Notes under the pieces: generated by a model
What the model was told of the DNA's origin: nothing
Databases searched by the model: none
Seen by the model: the letters and a program-made list of their open reading frames with translations, nothing else
Shown here: positions 10,296-27,441 of the stretch, one piece after another
Numbering within the stretch: position 1 is the stretch's first letter
Layout: each line of letters starts with the position of its first letter
Assembly (NCBI GenBank): GCA_005887685.1
Contig: VBHJ01000016.1
Location: 550-39,762 of the forward strand
Length of the DNA: 39,213 nucleotides
Direction: 5' to 3'
Source of the DNA: Chloroflexota bacterium
Lineage (GTDB): Bacteria > Chloroflexota > Dormibacteria > Dormibacterales > Dormibacteraceae
Position numbers and translations under genes: made by a program

Positions 10296-11531
10296 ATGCC
10301 TGAGACCCTGACCCAGGACGCGCGCGAGATCATTGAGCGTGCCACAGCCGGCGCGACTCACCGTGGCTCGTCGCAGGTGACTGCCACTGACGTTCTAAGG
10401 GCAACGCTGCAGCTGCCTGGCAGCCTGGCCGACAACGAGATTCGAGCCCTCGGCGTCGACCCGAAGGCCGTCGAGGCTCAGGTGCCGAGCGATGGCGATC
10501 CGCGTTCGTCGCCGGCGCTGGGCCAGCTGTTGGTCAACGCGGGTCGCGAGGCACAGGTGCTCGGCCACTACCAGGTCGATTCGATCCACCTGCTCCTCGC
10601 GCTGCTGTACTCGGACTCACCCGCGACGTCGGCCGCGCTGCAGAAGGCTGGGCTGAGCCTCTACGACCTGCGCAGCCACCTGCAGACGGGAAGCAAGGCC
10701 GCCCTGCGCGACTACAGCAAGCCGCCGCCCGACAAGGCATTGCGCCGCCGGCCGTGGCCATCCCTCCGTGGCGTGGTCAGTGTGAGCCCGTTCTTCCTCG
10801 GGCTCGTCGGAGTGACCGCGGCCGCCGGCGCGCTGCTGTGGACCGACGTGTTGCCGCGGTATGTCCCTGTGTGGACGTTGGCGTTCGTCATCGGCGGATG
10901 GGTCATCTCGCTTTGCATCCACGAGTTCGGCCACGCTGTGGTGGCGTACCTCGGCGGTGACCGCTCGGTCGTGGGAGCGGGCTACCTGTCGCTCAATCCC
11001 CTGCGCTACCAGAACATGATGATGAGCCTCATCCTGCCGATCATCTTTCTCTTGCTCGGCGGCATCGCCCTGCCCGGTGGCGCGGTGTACATCAATCACT
11101 CGGCATTGCGCACGCGGGCCTGGAGCTCCGCTGTTTCGCTCGCCGGCCCTGTCGGAACACTTTTGTGCGGCCTGCTCATTGCAGCGGTCTTCACTTTCGC
11201 CGGTAGCGGCTCGCTGATCACCGTCGACAACGAAAGCTTCTTTTCGGCCCTGGCTGCGCTCGGGTTTTTCATGGCCCTCGCGGTGATCTTGAACATGCTT
11301 CCAGTGCCGGGTCTGGACGGCTTCGGCATCATCCGGCCCTGGCTGCCCTACTCGATCCAGTACTCCGCCATGAGGTTCGCCACCGTGGGGGTCTACGGGG
11401 TCTTCATCGCCCTGTGGTTCGTCGCGCCTGTGCGCACCGCGTTCTTCCACGCCGTTTTTCAGTTGACCGCACTGGCCAACATCGACCCGACGCTGGTATC
11501 CCTCGGCCTGCTCAACATGCGGTTCTTCTAG
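10296..11531 (+). CDS. Clp N-domain fused to site-2 protease (M50) membrane protein
   Basis: The 411-residue protein joins two domains rarely seen together. Residues 1 to about 130 resemble the ClpA/ClpC N-terminal repeat domain (LTQDAREIIERAT, SSQVTATDVLRATL, YQVDSIHLLLALL), which binds substrates or adaptors. Residues about 160-411 are a multi-pass zinc metalloprotease of the M50 family: HEFGH at 209-213 gives two zinc His and the catalytic Glu210, and LDG with Asp341 is the third ligand. No Clp ATPase module and no PDZ domain are present. Five or six membrane segments are seen. It lies between rlmB and the NYN gene in an otherwise conserved block. TAAACT lies 9 bp before the ATG, suggesting leaderless expression. 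The Clp-N part may present misfolded or tagged substrates to the protease. Confidence 0.85.
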   Translation: MPETLTQDAREIIERATAGATHRGSSQVTATDVLRATLQLPGSLADNEIRALGVDPKAVEAQVPSDGDPRSSPALGQLLVNAGREAQVLGHYQVDSIHLLLALLYSDSPATSAALQKAGLSLYDLRSHLQTGSKAALRDYSKPPPDKALRRRPWPSLRGVVSVSPFFLGLVGVTAAAGALLWTDVLPRYVPVWTLAFVIGGWVISLCIHEFGHAVVAYLGGDRSVVGAGYLSLNPLRYQNMMMSLILPIIFLLLGGIALPGGAVYINHSALRTRAWSSAVSLAGPVGTLLCGLLIAAVFTFAGSGSLITVDNESFFSALAALGFFMALAVILNMLPVPGLDGFGIIRPWLPYSIQYSAMRFATVGVYGVFIALWFVAPVRTAFFHAVFQLTALANIDPTLVSLGLLNMRFF

Positions 11532-11535
11532 CCGC

Positions 11536-11973
11536 GTGGAACGGCTCATCGTCGACGGCTACAACGTGATTCACGCGTGGCCATCCCTGAAGCGGTTGCT
11601 ATCTGACGCATCGCTCGAGGCGGCGCGGGACAAGTTGGTCGAGCGCGTTGCCGTGCTCGGCATGATCACGGGCGAGTCGGTGACCGTCGTGTTCGATGCT
11701 CATCACTCGAACGCGATGGCCAACTCGGAGGAGAACGTCGAAGGGGTGCACGTCGTGTTCACGCGCAGAGGTCATTCGGCCGACCACGCGATCGAGCGAC
11801 TCGCCTATGCGGCGAGCAACACGGGAGACATCATCACGGTGGCGACTTCGGACCGATTCCAGCGCGACCTCGTGCGAGGCATGGGGGGCGCGGTGATCAG
11901 CGCGCTCGAGCTCGAGCGCCGCGTCATCGAAGCCGAAAACGAGATGACCCGCCGCGTCAAACGCTACCAATGA
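11536..11973 (+). CDS. NYN domain ribonuclease-like protein (YacP type)
   Basis: The product has 145 residues. It has the PIN-like NYN fold: LIVDGYNVIHAWPSL at the N-terminus with the first catalytic Asp, TVVFDAHHSN in the middle, FTRRGHSADHAIERLA and VATSDRFQRDLVRGMGG near the end. In B. subtilis, YacP (Rae1) is a ribosome-associated endoribonuclease that cleaves mRNA, and its gene follows rlmB. The start is GTG 11536, only 5 bp after the upstream stop. The TGA stop overlaps the pyk ATG as ATGA, so pyk is likely translationally coupled. Confidence 0.92.
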   Translation: MERLIVDGYNVIHAWPSLKRLLSDASLEAARDKLVERVAVLGMITGESVTVVFDAHHSNAMANSEENVEGVHVVFTRRGHSADHAIERLAYAASNTGDIITVATSDRFQRDLVRGMGGAVISALELERRVIEAENEMTRRVKRYQ

Positions 11974-13409
11974 GCCCGGTCCGCCGCACGCGCATCGTCT
12001 GCACCATCGGGCCGTCGAGCTCGTCGCCGCACGTTCTGCGGGCGATGGTCGCGGCGGGCATGGACGTGGCGAGGCTGAACTTTTCCCACGGCGACGCCCA
12101 GACGCACCGCGAGGCGGCGGCCAACGTCAGGGAGGCCGCCGAGGCCGCGGAGCGTCCGATCGCCCTGCTGGGCGACCTCCAGGGGCCGAAGATCCGCACC
12201 GGGTCGCTCGACAGCTCGTTCAAACGGCTGGTCAGGGGTCGCCGTGTTGGGCTTGTGGCTGCCCCTCCGTCGGCTTCGCCGACACCTCCCCATGAATGGG
12301 GAGGACAAGACATACCTGTGAGTCACGTAGAGCTCATCCAGGCGCTCCGGCCCGGCGACCGCGTCCTGCTTGACGACGGGCGCATCGAGCTGTCGGTGCG
12401 AGGCGTCGAGGACGGTCGCGCCGAGGCCTCGGTGGTGCGCGGTGGCTTGCTCGGCGAGCGTAAAGGGGTCAGCGTGCCGGGTCGCGCGCTTCCGATGCCG
12501 GCGCTGACCGAGAAAGACCTGGCCGACTTGAAGCTGGCGGTCGAGCTGGGCGTGGATTACATCGCGCTGTCGTTTGTCCGGCGTCCGGAGGACTTGATCG
12601 CCTGCCAGCAGCACCTCAGCGGGTTGAACTGCAGCGTCCCGGTCATCGCGAAGCTCGAGAAGCTGGAGGCGATCCGCAACCTCAGCGCGATCCTCGAGGT
12701 GGCCGACGCCGTGATGGTCGCCCGCGGCGACCTCGGCGTGGAGCTGAAGCTGGGAGACCTGCCCGCGGTGCAGAAGGACGTGATCGACCGCGCCAACCGT
12801 GCCGGTGTCCCGGTGATCACCGCCACCGAGATGCTCGAGTCGATGGTCACTTCGAACCGGCCCACGCGCGCCGAGGCCTCCGACGTGGCGAACGCGATCT
12901 GGGACGGCACGGATGCCGTGATGCTTTCCCAGGAGACGTCGGTCGGAGCGCACCCTGTCGAGGCGGTTCGCGCGATGGCGCGCATCTGCCTGGCGGCGCA
13001 GAAGCACCCGGCGTACGAGCGCGCCCGTCAGATCTGGCGAGAGCCCGGCCAGGTCGGCAGCGCGATCGCGCATGCGGCCGCCGCGACCGCAACCGAGATC
13101 CACGCCAAGGTGATTATCGCCTTCACCGAGTCGGGTACGACGGCGCTCCGGTGCAGCAAAGCCAGGCCCCCCATGCCCGTGGTGGCGGCCAGCCCTCACC
13201 CAGAGGTCCTCCGCCGAACTGCCCTGTACTCGGGCGTGATCCCGCTCCTGGTCAGCCCTGGTCGAGATACGGACCAGATGATCTCGAACGCCACCGAAGC
13301 CGCGGTCCAGAGCGGCCTTGTCCGGACAGGGGATCGCGTGGTCGTCGTGGCCGGCGTCCCGGTCGGCCGGCCCGGCCAGACCAACCTCCTGAAAGTAGAG
13401 ACGGTTTAG
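11970..13409 (+). CDS. pyk: Pyruvate kinase
   Basis: Makes ATP and pyruvate from phosphoenolpyruvate in the last step of glycolysis. The 479 residues show RRTRIVCTIGPSS, ARLNFSHG, LLGDLQGPKIRTG, the catalytic-lysine region VPVIAKLEKLEAI, MVARGDLGVE, and the signature VPVITATEMLESMVTSNRPT, with a C-terminal allosteric domain ending VAGVPVGRPGQTNLLKVETV. In the mobile B domain, residues 98-112 (within AAPPSASPTPPHEWGG) are encoded by an in-frame copy of the dispersed two-hairpin repeat, replacing sequence normally present there. The rest of the B domain (LRPGDRVLLDDGRIEL) is intact and all active-site motifs remain, so the enzyme is probably functional. ATG overlaps the NYN stop. Confidence 0.95.
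   Translation: MSPVRRTRIVCTIGPSSSSPHVLRAMVAAGMDVARLNFSHGDAQTHREAAANVREAAEAAERPIALLGDLQGPKIRTGSLDSSFKRLVRGRRVGLVAAPPSASPTPPHEWGGQDIPVSHVELIQALRPGDRVLLDDGRIELSVRGVEDGRAEASVVRGGLLGERKGVSVPGRALPMPALTEKDLADLKLAVELGVDYIALSFVRRPEDLIACQQHLSGLNCSVPVIAKLEKLEAIRNLSAILEVADAVMVARGDLGVELKLGDLPAVQKDVIDRANRAGVPVITATEMLESMVTSNRPTRAEASDVANAIWDGTDAVMLSQETSVGAHPVEAVRAMARICLAAQKHPAYERARQIWREPGQVGSAIAHAAAATATEIHAKVIIAFTESGTTALRCSKARPPMPVVAASPHPEVLRRTALYSGVIPLLVSPGRDTDQMISNATEAAVQSGLVRTGDRVVVVAGVPVGRPGQTNLLKVETV
12262..12306 (+). repeat. Dispersed two-hairpin repeat inside pyk, in frame
   Basis: This 45-bp unit (15 codons) has first hairpin GTCGGC-TTC-GCCGAC and second hairpin CCTCCCCATGAATGGGGAGG (12285-12304). 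Compared with the 7369 copy, both arms of the first hairpin have changed in step. Because its length is a multiple of three, the pyk frame is kept. Confidence 0.88.
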
Positions 13410-13448: not shown

Positions 13449-15296
13449 GTGGCGCCCGCCTCCCACGGTCTTCTCGGCCGCATCCAGAGAGCGAACGACG
13501 ACGCCGCGCACCGTTTCGGGCCGCACACGGCCGAGGTGGAGGCGTTCATCGTCGCGGCGGCGCAGCTGACGCCATGGCAATGGCGGCAGGTGCTGGCGGT
13601 TCGGCGCCTGGTCGGCTCGGTCAGCAAAGAAGGCGCGCCGGATTCGGCGCGCTCGATCCAGGCCGCGATCCGGACCAGCGACACGCGGATATCGGAGCCG
13701 ATCGCGCGGGCGGGCGAGGTGCTGTTCGACACGCTGGTCAAGAAGAGCGACGACAAGCAGGTGGCTGCATGGCAGGCGATGATCGCGATCGTCATGCGCT
13801 CGCAATTGCCCGCGCTGAAATTCGCGGTCAGCTACGCGCCGTTTGCCGCTCTGATCCCGCTTTCGAGCTCCGACGTCCTGGAACCGAAGACACGGCGCTT
13901 GATCGCCCGCCTCGGCGATCTCACCAAGGAGCAATTCGAGATGCTGGGCCGGCGCTGGCGCATCGAGCCGGCCGCCTCGCGCGCCCTGCTTCAGGCGGTC
14001 GCGAAGAACCGGCATGTGAAGAGCGAAGAGGCGGTGGCAATCGCAGCGCTCTCGCTGATCCCGCACCAGCTGGTGGGAGATCCCGGGTGGGCCGCGGTGC
14101 GCACGGCCGTGCACGCAGGCCGCATCCTTGGCGCTCAAGACGATCTGACGCCACAGGAGGTCGCGGAGCTCTGGGTGCCCATCGAACCCGTGATCCCCTT
14201 CGCCTCGCTTTCCGAAGTCGTGGAGATCCCCGCGGGCGAGCGGGTCCGCGCCGCCGTGGGCAGCGCGATCAAGACGATCACCCGACCCCCGCGAACCCGC
14301 GCTGTCGCGGCGCCCGTGACCAGGGCGGCCGCGCCCTACGGGCCCAACCACAACGAGGTGGCGGCATTCATCAAGGGTGTGGCCGAGCTCAGCCCGATCC
14401 AGTGGCTGCGAGTGCTCGACCGCCGCAAGCTGGTCTCCAGCGTCACACGAGAAGGCGCGGCTGAGCCTGCCGGAGTGGTCAGGTCGATCCTCGCCATGCT
14501 CGAGGGCACGCGCGATCTCGATTCCTACCTGCGCTGCCGCGCGTTTGTCGCGGTCGAGCGGGCCGGATTCGCGCTCGAGTCGCGCGCGCGCCTCAACCTC
14601 GACCAGCTCCGCCAGGTCTTGACGCCGTTCGAGCCCTCGATCGCGTTCGAGGAGCTGAACGGCGGCGGGTTTGCGCACAGGGTCGCCTCCCTCGCGAAGA
14701 CGGAATGGCAGCGCATCGCGGCGGCGGCGCCGGACGCGAATGAGGAGGCGGTGGCGCCGCTCGTCAACGCCGGCATCGCGCTGATCGATTTCTTCGGCGG
14801 CCGCTCCGACGATGAGGCGGTGGCCGCGTGGCACGCGGTGTCGGCGCTGGTCCACCGCCACCACCTGACGCCGATCAAGTTCGCCGCCTCATACGCGCCG
14901 TTTGCCTCGGCGATCCCGGTGACCAACCCGCGGTCGCTTGGCGCGATGGTGTCGCGGTACGTCACCGCGGTCGGCCGGCTCGGGCCTAGCCAGTGCGCCG
15001 TGCTGGCGCAGCCGTGGCAGATGGACGACGCGCTTTCCAGCGTGCTGTCGGGAGCGGTCGCGGATGGGAGTTCGCGCTCGGGCGAGGAGGCGGCTGCGCT
15101 GAACGCGATGGTGACGGTGCCAATGCGCCTGGCGGGGAGCGGGGGATGGGCAGCGGTGAAGACCGCCGCCTTTGGCGGGCGCGTGATGGCGGTCCGCAAC
15201 CGCTTGACGGCCGAGCAGCTGACCGCGCTGTGGGCGCCGATCCAGCCGGCGATCCCGCTCGCCTCGCTCAGCGCTCCCGCACGCGCCCGGCGCTAG
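13449..15296 (+). CDS. Uncharacterised protein with two tandem homologous halves
   Basis: The 615-residue protein does not match a family I recognise. It is an internal duplication: residues about 23-265 and 297-612 align. Matching pairs include FGPHTAEVEAFIVAAAQLTP with YGPNHNEVAAFIKGVAELSP, LKFAVSYAPFAALIP with IKFAASYAPFASAIP, GDPGWAAVRTAVHAGR with GSGGWAAVKTAAFGGR, and LWVPIEPVIPFASL with LWAPIQPAIPLASL. The sequence is Ala-rich and helical, with no signal peptide, membrane helix, metal motif or nucleotide-binding motif seen. A linker near residues 270-295 is Arg/Pro/Ala-rich. The GTG start has a CAGAAT 7 bp upstream, suggesting leaderless expression. It follows pyk by 39 bp. It is probably cytosolic; function is unknown. 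Confidence 0.75.
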   Translation: MAPASHGLLGRIQRANDDAAHRFGPHTAEVEAFIVAAAQLTPWQWRQVLAVRRLVGSVSKEGAPDSARSIQAAIRTSDTRISEPIARAGEVLFDTLVKKSDDKQVAAWQAMIAIVMRSQLPALKFAVSYAPFAALIPLSSSDVLEPKTRRLIARLGDLTKEQFEMLGRRWRIEPAASRALLQAVAKNRHVKSEEAVAIAALSLIPHQLVGDPGWAAVRTAVHAGRILGAQDDLTPQEVAELWVPIEPVIPFASLSEVVEIPAGERVRAAVGSAIKTITRPPRTRAVAAPVTRAAAPYGPNHNEVAAFIKGVAELSPIQWLRVLDRRKLVSSVTREGAAEPAGVVRSILAMLEGTRDLDSYLRCRAFVAVERAGFALESRARLNLDQLRQVLTPFEPSIAFEELNGGGFAHRVASLAKTEWQRIAAAAPDANEEAVAPLVNAGIALIDFFGGRSDDEAVAAWHAVSALVHRHHLTPIKFAASYAPFASAIPVTNPRSLGAMVSRYVTAVGRLGPSQCAVLAQPWQMDDALSSVLSGAVADGSSRSGEEAAALNAMVTVPMRLAGSGGWAAVKTAAFGGRVMAVRNRLTAEQLTALWAPIQPAIPLASLSAPARARR

Positions 15297-15315: not shown

Positions 15316-16050
15316 ATGGCGAACGCACGCAGCAACGGCCGCCTTCCGAAATTCCAGAAGGTCATGGTCGTTTCCGCGCACCCGGACGACCCCGATTTCG
15401 GCGCCGGCGGTTCGGTCGCCCGCCTGGCCGACGGCGGGGCCGAGGTGACGTACGTGATCGTCACCGACGGCAGGCAGGGCGGGGAGGACCCAGCCCAGAA
15501 GGACTCCGAGCTCATCGCGTTGCGGCAGAAGGAGCAGAAGGCCGCGGCCAGAGTGCTGGGCGTCAAGAAGATCGAGTTCCTCGGTTACAAGGACGGACAC
15601 CTTTCGCCCGACCTCAAGCTCCGCCGCGACATCGTCCGCATGATCCGCAAGCACAAGCCGGAGCTGGTGATCACCCATATCCCAGGACGCGTGCTGGACG
15701 CGCCGATGGGCGGATCCCATCCCGACCACCTCGCCGTCGGCGAAGCGACGATGGCGGCCGTGTACCCGGACTCGCGCAACCCACGCGCGTTCCGCTCCCT
15801 GCTCAAAGAAGGCTTCGAGCCGCATGAGGTGAAAGAGGTCTGGATCCCGTTCTGGACGCTGGGGGATTACCTGGTCGACATCACGCCGACCCTCGACCGG
15901 AAGATCGAGGCATTGCGCAAGCACAAGAGCCAGGTGTCGAAACCGGGCCGGGAGTGGGATTTCGAGAAGTTCATGCGCAAGCGGCACCGGGACGTCGGCA
16001 AGCGAGCCGGCTATCAGTATGCTGAGTCGTTCAAGAGGATCACCGTCTAG
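15316..16050 (+). CDS. PIG-L family deacetylase
   Basis: Zinc-dependent N-deacetylase of the LmbE/PIG-L family, 244 residues. Zinc and catalytic residues lie in VVSAHPDDPDFGAGG (His22, Asp24, Asp25) and in GGSHPDHLAVGEA (His135 and His138 region). Family members remove acetyl groups from GlcNAc-type substrates in, for example, mycothiol, bacillithiol, antibiotic or GPI-like pathways; the substrate here cannot be told. A nearby cysteine dioxygenase-like gene makes a low-molecular-weight thiol role conceivable but unproven. TAACCT lies 8 bp before the ATG, another leaderless-type start. The 3' end overlaps the convergent SGNH hydrolase gene by 11 bp. Confidence 0.9.
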   Translation: MANARSNGRLPKFQKVMVVSAHPDDPDFGAGGSVARLADGGAEVTYVIVTDGRQGGEDPAQKDSELIALRQKEQKAAARVLGVKKIEFLGYKDGHLSPDLKLRRDIVRMIRKHKPELVITHIPGRVLDAPMGGSHPDHLAVGEATMAAVYPDSRNPRAFRSLLKEGFEPHEVKEVWIPFWTLGDYLVDITPTLDRKIEALRKHKSQVSKPGREWDFEKFMRKRHRDVGKRAGYQYAESFKRITV

Positions 16051-23974: not shown

Positions 23975-24370
23975 ATGGCGGCGACAAAAATCACCCCGAA
24001 AGAGTTCGTCGAGGCTTTGAAGGATTGGAGCATTCTCGACGTCGTCGAGGCCGTGAAGGCCATCGAGGACGAGTTCGGCATCAAGGCGGCGGCGCCGGTG
24101 GCGGCGGCCGCGGTGGCCGGACCCGCGGGTGGCGAGGCGGCCGCGCCCGAAGAGGAGCAGACCGAGTTCACGGTGACCCTCACCGCGGTTGGCGACAGCA
24201 AGATCAACGTGATCAAGGCGGTCCGCGAGCTTACGCAGCTCGGCCTTAAGGAGGCGAAGGACCTCGTCGACGCGGCGCCGAAGCCCGTGCTCGAGAACGT
24301 TTCGAAGGCGGACGCCGAGAAGGCTGTCGCCCGGCTGAAGGAAGCGGGCGCGACGGCGGAGTCGAAGTAG
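23975..24370 (+). CDS. rplL: 50S ribosomal protein L7/L12
   Basis: Stalk protein of 131 residues that recruits translational GTPases. The N-terminal dimerisation domain ([20 protein letters not shown]), an Ala/Gly/Glu-rich hinge (about 38-62), and the C-terminal domain ([40 protein letters not shown]) are all present. It starts right after the rplJ stop. The last 125 bp overlap, on the other strand, the extended 3' end of the GH65 gene. Confidence 0.97.
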
Positions 24371-26741
24371 CCCGAAGCTGACGCGGGCGCGCCGCACCGC
24401 GCCGCGCCGGCTTTCGGCCCGCGGGTTGTTTCGGTTCGGGCGGCGCGGTGATCGGTGGGATGGTCCTCACGATCGCGCGGCCGGGCCCGACCCGAATGCG
24501 TTCCCCGTGGTGATCGAAGCTCAGCGGCCGGCCGCGCACCAGCGTGTAGGTGGCGCGCCGCTGGTCGACCGTCACCTTGATCAGCCGTCCGAGGAACGTG
24601 ACCCTGAAGGTCAGCTTGCGAATCGCGGGCGGGAGGCGAGGACTGAAGCCAAGCGAACCGCCGTGGTGGCGCATCCCGCCGAAGCCCTGGACGGCGGCGA
24701 TCCACGCGCCCGCCGCCGAGCCCACGTGCACGCCGTCGCGCACGTTGCGCTCCAGGTCGTCCAGGTCCATCAGCGCGGCCTCCGCCAGGTAGTCGTGGGC
24801 CAGCCGCAAGTGCCCAACCTCGGCCGCGATCACCGCTTGCGTGCACGAGGACAGGGATGAGTCGCGAACCGTGATCGCCTCGTAGTAGGCGAAATTGCGC
24901 GATTTCTCGTCGGCGGCGAACGCGTCGCCGCGGAGGTGCATCGCCAGGACGAGATCGGCCTGTTTCACCACCTGCTTGCGGTAGAGGTCGACGTACGGGA
25001 AGTGGAGGAAAAGGGGGTATTGGTCCGGCCTGGTGTGGGCGAAATCCCAATGTTCGTGGTCGGTGAACTGGCTTGCCTGCTTGTGGATGCGCAAGTCGGG
25101 CTCGTACGGGATGTAGACCTTTGCCGCGGCCTTCCGCCAAGCCTTGACTTCAGCCGCGGTGACTTTCAAGCGCCTCGCAACTCCAGAGTTGCGGGCGACC
25201 GCGTCCGCCGCCGCGTTGAGGTTTCGCTGCGCCATGAGGTTGGTGTACAGGTTGTTGTCCGCCAGCGCGCTGTACTCATCCGGTCCCGTGACACCGTCGA
25301 TCCGAAACTCACCGCCGCGGTCGTGATGGCCCAGGGACGCCCACAACCGCGCCGTCTCGATCAGAAGCTCGGCGCCATAGGTCTGCTCGAAACGCGAGTC
25401 GCCGGTCGCGCTGACGTAGCGAAGGACTGCGTCGGCGACGTCCGCGTTGACGTGAAACGCCGCCGTCGACGCGGGCCAGTAGCCGGAGCATTCCTCGCCG
25501 CGAATCGTGCGCCAGGGGAACGCGGCGCCTTTCAGGCCCAGGTCGCGGGCACGGGCGCGCGCGAGGTCGAGGATCGAATGGCGCCAGCGCAGCGCGTCGG
25601 CGACGCACTCGGGAGCCGTGTAGGTGAGGACCGGCAGGACGAACGTGTCCATGTCCCAGAAGGTGTGGCCGTCGTAGCCTGGACCGGTCAGTCCCTTGGC
25701 GGGAATCGCGCGCTGCTCGGCACGGGCGGCCGACTGCAGGACGTGGAACATCGCAAAGCGGATGCCCTGCTGGACCTCGTCGTCGCCCTCGAGCTCCACG
25801 TCCGACCGCGACCAGAAGCTGTCCAGGTATCGCCGCTGGGCAGCGGCAAGGCCGTCCCACCCGTGCACGACCGCTTCGGCCAACGCGCCTTCGACCTGCG
25901 AGCGCAGAGCCGGCACCGACCTCATGCTCGACCAGCCGTACGCGACGAACTTCACGAGCCTGAGGCGCTGGCCGGGCTTGACCCTGGACGTGACGGTGAA
26001 ACGGGCGCGGTTTGCGTCGCTCTCGCTCTTGACCTCGGTCCCCCGCGGCCCGCGCACGACGTGCTCCATCGCGGTCGCGACCCGGAGGCGGCTGCGCTTG
26101 GTGGAGTGAATGAGCACCGCACCGCGCTCGGTCGCTGCGGACAGCTCGGCTGTGAGCGGGCTCTCGATGATTTCCGACGCGCGTGGGTCTTCCCGGAGCG
26201 CGACGGGGACCGGCTCGTTGGCGACCAGCTCCGACTGGATCACCAGATCGACCGCCTCGTCGATTGGCTCGACCTCATAGAGCACGGCGGCCAGCGCACG
26301 GTGCCGCAGGGACACCAGGCGAGTCGAGCGCACACGGACGGTGCGGTGCGCGGGCGACTCCCATTCGGCCGTGCGCGTCAGGAGGCCGGACTTGAGGTCG
26401 AGCACCCGCTCGTGGGAGAGGAGCTTGCCGTAGCGGACGTCGAACGGCTCGTCTTCGACCATCAGCCGGATGATCTTGCCGTCGGTCACGTTGACCAGCG
26501 TCTGCCCTGCCTCGGGATAGCCGTATGCCGCCTCCGCGTAAGGGAGGGGCACCTCCTCGAAGACCGCGTTCAGATATGTGCCCGGTGTGGCGTGAGGCTC
26601 CCCTTCGTCGAGGTTGGCGCGCCACCCGATGTGGCCGTTGGAAAGCGCGAAGATCGATTCGGACTGGCCGAGGCGGTCGAGGTCGAGCCCGGTCTCACGC
26701 AACTTCCAGGGCTCGCACGTGAATCGGTCGTCCTCGATCAC
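24246..26741 (-). CDS. Glycoside hydrolase family 65 phosphorylase
   Basis: This 831-residue GH65 enzyme cleaves an alpha-glucoside with phosphate to beta-glucose 1-phosphate. Family motifs are [20 protein letters not shown] at the N-terminus, [15 protein letters not shown] (the W362-D363 substrate site), [19 protein letters not shown] with general acid Glu489, and [20 protein letters not shown] near the phosphate site. Substrate could be trehalose, maltose, kojibiose or nigerose; sequence alone does not decide. The last about 70 residues, after VRTIPPIT, are a basic Pro/Arg/Ala tail, and the final 41 codons run antisense to rplL. GTG 26741 lies 1 bp after the beta-phosphoglucomutase stop, so the two genes form one operon with matching functions. 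Confidence 0.9.
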
Positions 26742-26742
26742 G

Positions 26743-27441
26743 TCATTTCGCCAGCAGATCGGCGAGGTCTTTGACCACCACGTCCGCGCCGTGAGCGTAC
26801 AGAGCCTCGGCCTGGCCGGCGCGGTCGACCCCGATCACTCGCCCGAATCCGCCCGCGCGGCCGGCCTGGACTCCCGCGAGCGCGTCCTCGTAGACGGCGG
26901 CCTCTTTCGGTTGTGCGTTCAGAATGTGCGCCGCTTTCAAGTAGGTGTCGGGGGCGGGCTTGCCCTCCAGATGCTCACGCTCCGCGTCGTTGCCGTCGAC
27001 CTGGGCGTCGAAGAGGCCCTCGAGCTTTGCCGCGTGCAGCACCTCGGTGGTGTGCTTGCTCGACGAGACGACCGCGACCTTCTTACTGGCGGCGCGTGCT
27101 GCGTGGATGTATCGGATTGTGCCTTCGTAGGTCTGTACGCCGTGTTGGTGGATCAGGTGGAGGAACAGGTGGTCCTTGCGTTCGGCGATGGCCTCGACCT
27201 TGTTGTCCGCGAGTTGGATGTTTCGAGAGGCGAGGAAGTCGTGGACGCCGGCGTCGCGGGGCTTGCCATCCACGTAGGTGTCGTAGTCCTCAACTTGGTC
27301 GAATGGTTCTTGCCCTCGGGCCTTTAGAAGTTCGTCGAAGACCTGCTTCCAGGCCTGGGCGTGAACCCTGGCGGTCTGGGTGATCACGCCGTCGAGGTCG
27401 AAGAGGCAGGCGTGGATGGTGGGGGGAAGGCCCAATGCCAC
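26743..27441 (-). CDS. Beta-phosphoglucomutase family HAD hydrolase
   Basis: The 232-residue HAD enzyme has nucleophile Asp15 and Asp17 in ACLFDLDGVIT, the cap helix region TARVHAQAWKQVFDELL, motif II VAVVSSSKHT, motif III Lys in LEGKPAPDTYLKAA, and motif IV AVYEDALAGVQAGRAGGF. Beta-phosphoglucomutase turns beta-glucose 1-phosphate into glucose 6-phosphate. That is exactly the product of the GH65 enzyme encoded directly downstream, so the pair would feed a disaccharide into glycolysis. The GTG at 27441 is taken as start; TTG 27435 is possible. The repeat array lies just upstream. Confidence 0.9.
   Translation of the reverse strand: MALGLPPTIHACLFDLDGVITQTARVHAQAWKQVFDELLKARGQEPFDQVEDYDTYVDGKPRDAGVHDFLASRNIQLADNKVEAIAERKDHLFLHLIHQHGVQTYEGTIRYIHAARAASKKVAVVSSSKHTTEVLHAAKLEGLFDAQVDGNDAEREHLEGKPAPDTYLKAAHILNAQPKEAAVYEDALAGVQAGRAGGFGRVIGVDRAGQAEALYAHGADVVVKDLADLLAK

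Follow-up and report, generated by a model that had tools for sequence, protein, structure and literature searches.

A predicted five-unit helical repeat protein encoded beside pyruvate kinase in Dormibacteria appears to belong to an uncatalogued module family of Chloroflexota

The described proteins closest in build to the one analysed here are the alpha-solenoids and other helical tandem repeats (HEAT, TPR, ARM and others), which share with its predicted structure an all-helical make-up, tandem units and no obvious active site. HEAT, TPR and ARM repeats are 30–45 aa long, have two or three helices and are recognised by profile or fold. The protein of gene X differs from these: its units are about 110 aa long (range roughly 93–121 aa) with five or six helices each, it has no Pfam repeat match, and its model matches no PDB fold at E ≤ 0.001. 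X carries both signatures of a module family found in Chloroflexota, namely [FY]GPN..[EA]V..F(I/L)......QW in one helix pair (A–B) and A..A..AL..R..L....F..LY.PF...IP in the other (D–E).

X lies in a window (the whole 39,213-nucleotide stretch of DNA analysed) from a genome of 3.05 Mb, between the pyruvate kinase gene pyk and a gene for a PIG-L family deacetylase-like protein (Table 1). The initial annotation had described a 615-residue frame adjoining pyk and the largest uncharacterised gene of the window, and both descriptions hold: the bigger frames belong to rpoB, rpoC and the gene of a GH65 enzyme, and X is the largest gene negative in Pfam. An ORF close to X in size (612 aa, 24936-26774, + strand) is antisense to the GH65 gene and has no matches. 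X is a genuine gene kept by purifying selection, because its dN/dS against six orthologues is 0.12–0.24 and its codon-position GC (0.71/0.53/0.88) matches that of pyk. Its rate is below neutral and a little above those of pyk (dN/dS 0.08) and PIG-L (0.05), the values for these neighbours coming from one orthologue. An antisense ORF of 966 aa that spans pyk and X is not considered a gene, having no family and being interrupted by stops in orthologues; no antisense frame over X is open throughout in the sampled orthologues. The protein contains no TM-like stretch and on that basis is taken to be soluble.

X is composed of five units in a 2 + 3 arrangement, U1 and U2 forming the first half and U3–U5 the second, with a basic linker between the halves (Table 1). 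In BLASTP the halves align in two segments, one of 186 aa with 40% identity (E 2e-42) and one of 59 aa with 49% (E 5e-11), and the motifs SYAPFA, GWAAVKTA and LW.PI.P.IP.ASL, to which the initial annotation had drawn attention, are found in both (the first-half copy of the second motif being GWAAVRTA). The old internal duplication that it proposed is borne out, and so are two homologous halves; these are, however, not two copies of one domain but assemblies of a finer repeat, and their alignment is interrupted in the second half because this half has one unit more. U1 resembles U3 in its first helix pair (E 3e-22) and U4 in its second (E 2e-24), whereas U2 is very close to U5 (E 6e-34). When pooled as profiles, the odd units (1, 3 and 4) match the even units (2 and 5) with E 8e-7, a score reached by 0 of 100 column shuffles. 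Furthermore, a profile made from U1, U3, U4, the first unit of the paralogue Y (Y1) and the relative F (both described below), without U2 and U5, finds U5 in two orthologues (E 2.6e-4 and 7e-4) and Y2 (E 2e-6). The assignment of five units is based on the U2–U3, U3–U5 and pooled odd–even comparisons together with these profile searches. Single comparisons such as U1–U2 (7/100 shuffles) are not significant alone, which makes it probable, not certain, that the odd and even units share an ancestor.

Table 1. Positions of X, its parts and its flanking genes in the window
Feature	Coordinates	Strand	Details
pyk, pyruvate kinase	11970..13409	+	39 nt upstream of X; Pfam PK E 1e-101; synteny
Gene X, five-unit helical repeat protein (predicted fold), 615 aa	13449..15296	+	GTG start; stop included
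Unit U1, residues 22-142	13512..13874	+	RFGPHTAEVEAFI...LTPWQW...MRSQLPALKFAVSYAPFAALIP; SYAPFA at residues 128-133; unit-profile match E 2.5e-44, U1 itself being included in that profile
Unit U2, residues 143-256	13875..14216	+	six-helix variant; GWAAVRTA (residues 213-220) and LWVPIEPVIPFASL (residues 241-254)
Basic linker joining the halves, residues 257-295, pI 12	14217..14333	+	low model confidence (pLDDT <50 at residues 257-269 and 272-293); charge
Unit U3, residues 296-400	14334..14648	+	YGPNHNEVAAFI...LSPIQWLRVLDRRKLV
Unit U4, residues 401-493	14649..14927	+	second SYAPFASAIP (SYAPFA at residues 481-486)
Unit U5, residues 494-609	14928..15275	+	six-helix variant; GWAAVKTA (residues 566-573) and LWAPIQPAIPLASL (residues 594-607)
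PIG-L family deacetylase-like gene	15316..16050	+	19 nt downstream of X; Pfam PIG-L E 4e-32; synteny

An AlphaFold2 model of X, generated from 29 alignment rows, is all helix with a mean pLDDT of 81.2, and the helix pattern occurs in it five times over; the overall shape is uncertain because the pTM is 0.51. The predicted helical fold agrees with the earlier proposal that the conserved motifs imply a real fold. In each unit, a variable helix links helix pair A–B (EV..FI..V..L.P.QW..V) to helix pair D–E (AW.A..ALV.R..L....F...YAPFA..IP). Charged and aromatic residues strongly conserved in the orthologue alignment (E193 E194, D211, R321, D324-R326, E546 E547, R560 and K571) could be a ligand-binding or catalytic site, a point against the non-enzymatic reading given below. 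Foldseek returned no fold match to the model in the PDB (best E 0.66) or BFVD, with nothing below E 0.25.

Searches by sequence place X in no family of Pfam, NCBIfam, PADLOC or PHROGs, and 0 families of the first three reach their curated cut-off, in keeping with the unknown family first noted. A PDB search with the X sequence gave photosystem II protein Z chains and nothing else, a chance match with E about 1, and one with the unit profile gave nothing better than E 0.04. No profile match to a known repeat family was found: X is a repeat protein, but of an uncatalogued kind. Its relatives, too, match no named Pfam, NCBIfam or PADLOC family apart from one fused J domain, and a literature search found nothing relevant to X.

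Full-length orthologues of X are present in 31 of the 110 Dormibacteria genomes searched, all of them in family f1; where relatives occur in named records, these are MAGs of soil Chloroflexi or Candidatus Dormibacteraeota. The pyk neighbourhood of X is fixed: in orthologue loci of sufficient length the order is rlmB, a ClpN/M50-like gene, NYN, pyk, X and PIG-L, and in those reaching far enough PIG-L is followed, on the opposite strand, by GDSL and then isocitrate/isopropylmalate-dehydrogenase-like genes. In the window, the ClpN/M50-like member of the conserved rlmB-to-pyk block (10296-11531) has a Clp_N-like motif (Pfam E 3e-8), and its match to peptidase M50 falls slightly short of the cut-off; the gene is unmatched in some orthologue loci (for example L036, L038, L043 and L044). 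In a tree of pyk, the X-bearing rows form one strongly supported clade, inside which lies a congener without X (genome G005), whose pyk and PIG-L genes are 23 nt apart. As G005 is nested in this clade, X was lost there once, and cleanly; because the loss left pyk and PIG-L undisturbed, X is dispensable for pyk function in that genome. In the outgroup genera of family f1, the pyk–PIG-L gap contains either a sensorless histidine kinase (HisKA + HATPase_c) of about 228 aa or nothing, and no shorter homologue of X was found in it. This kinase slot was seen at L151:2996-3679, where the Pfam domains were established, and also at L149, L150, L152 and L153 (genomes G108, G097, G021, G107 and G023).

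The paralogue Y, of about 270 aa and two units, is encoded in the same Dormibacteria as X and has a fixed neighbourhood of its own, that of the fructose-1,6-bisphosphatase gene glpX (Pfam FBPase_glpX, E 2e-127). At all Y loci examined, that of the source genome included, the Y frame directly follows or overlaps the end of glpX; in the source genome (L159:6563-8361) it overlaps, which suggests translational coupling. Within the phylum sample, every X-bearing genome has Y, as does G005, and none of the eight further family f1 genomes without X carries it. In its two-unit layout Y corresponds to one half of X (U1–Y1, E 3e-8), and it shares with X the motifs FL...QW and LVREQL....F...Y.PFAT..P. 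Unlike X, it is unduplicated, lacks the basic linker, is mildly acidic (pI 5.9) and sits on glpX instead of pyk. Its AlphaFold model, from 11 rows, has a pLDDT of 53.5.

More distant relatives extend the range. F, a protein of about 170 aa with one unit, occurs in Dormibacteria family f3, where a single gene separates it from the divergently oriented nuoA-D. It shares with X the motifs RFGPNTAEVEAF...LTP.EW and AAGALVVR......F..L..PF (X–F profile E 8e-10) and differs in having a single unit, whose two helix pairs are separated by a long acidic insert. Family f21 has tandem genes for acidic proteins of two units each, with acidic linkers, opposite lysC and between lysC and thrC/hom (L192:3319-5743 and L193-L195); a ThrH-like HAD phosphatase gene lies alongside. 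Elsewhere in Chloroflexota, unit profiles find one-unit proteins and one fusion of a DnaJ J domain (Pfam E 3e-11) to a single copy of the module (L199:591-1748, genome G323). One of the proteins with a single unit, placed centrally in 475 aa (L201:548-1972, G098:C17), also has a weak C-terminal S-Me-THD-like match below the cut-off.

At E ≤ 0.001 the wider profile detects the module in 49 of the 400 genomes searched in the phylum; that profile contains some distant units, whose strongest E-values are thus partly circular, whereas the narrower profile (U1, U3, U4, Y1 and F) contains none of them. On these comparisons X is best described as belonging to a larger repeat family that is uncatalogued; the internal duplication seen in the initial annotation stands, but X is no isolated protein, single-copy and two-copy relatives being encoded by nuo, by glpX and in other Chloroflexota. 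Both this family and the anatomy of X have good support. The picture is of a helical module that recurs in Chloroflexota, is not represented in Pfam or NCBIfam, has been multiplied from one to five units and holds fixed genomic places by pyk and glpX, with other members near nuo and lysC/thrC. The module may be known or common beyond Chloroflexota, because the profile searches covered Chloroflexota and the fold searches the PDB and BFVD rather than predicted cellular structures. One lead is PHROG 8332, annotated with unknown function, which matches three relatives (the L192 protein in two stretches, E 2e-8; F and Y, E 4e-4 each); it does not match X itself and shows no enrichment among 29 orthologues, and no relatives were found on phage, plasmid or viral contigs.

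We propose that X is a non-enzymatic helical adaptor in the pyk neighbourhood, a reading for and against which we find the balance even. On this view X is a five-unit expansion of a module that is widespread in Chloroflexota; it would be transcribed together with pyk, and its targets would be proteins from central carbon metabolism, just as the two-unit sister Y would act on the fructose-1,6-bisphosphatase encoded by glpX. We infer a binding scaffold because X has no enzyme family or fold match, a tandem helical build, a soluble character and a disordered basic linker. Co-directional adjacency, with 39 nt after pyk and 19 nt before PIG-L, suggests a single transcript. The conserved adjacency also suggests that X and Y act on their neighbour enzymes Pyk and GlpX or in the same process; pyruvate kinase as the partner of X is speculative, adjacency not being equal to interaction. 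Since relatives lie near nuo or lysC/thrC, no single pathway is common to the family. If its members do act on their neighbours, they would constitute an unrecognised level at which metabolism is controlled in soil bacteria that are abundant and mostly uncultured.

In a stricter version of the partnership, pyruvate kinase would have X as its own regulator or stabiliser and fructose-1,6-bisphosphatase would have Y, the two acting as paired controls of the opposed directions of glycolysis. The examined loci place X after pyk and Y after glpX, both belong to the same clade, and the relatives in family f21 adjoin aspartokinase, also an allosteric enzyme; however, G005 has pyk and Y without X, the neighbours of other members differ, and the adjacency may be historical. 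We consider such paired control rather unlikely, and would place direct control of Pyk and GlpX by X and Y at that level or slightly under it. The boldest form, in which a new family tunes glycolysis and gluconeogenesis in Dormibacteria by binding directly to enzymes of opposed flux (X to Pyk, Y to GlpX), with the number of repeats setting the partner, is unlikely.

The many near-invariant polar residues common to U2 and U5 would also suit an enzyme or small-molecule binder of a new fold, with EE...P..R..G..GW.AVKTA..GGR as its putative site. We think this quite improbable: the EE...GGR motif is not retained in the odd units or in F, X has no catalytic family or fold match, and the helical repeat pattern favours binding. 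That X replaces the small histidine kinase of the outgroup slot, in a signalling role tied to the operon, would fit the position of that kinase between pyk and PIG-L and the confinement of X to one clade, which also includes the secondary loss. Yet X has no sequence relation to kinases, and the slot is empty in some outgroups (g5) and in G005 and may simply be a gap tolerant of insertions, which leaves a substitution very doubtful. The J-domain fusion in G323, for its part, raises the thought that the units are a co-chaperone-like substrate-binding module, but the fusion is single and X has no J domain, and we regard this as very improbable.

Elsewhere in the window, the GH65 glycoside phosphorylase/hydrolase gene adjoins a HAD hydrolase gene (24249-27441), an ordinary disaccharide-phosphorylase pair.
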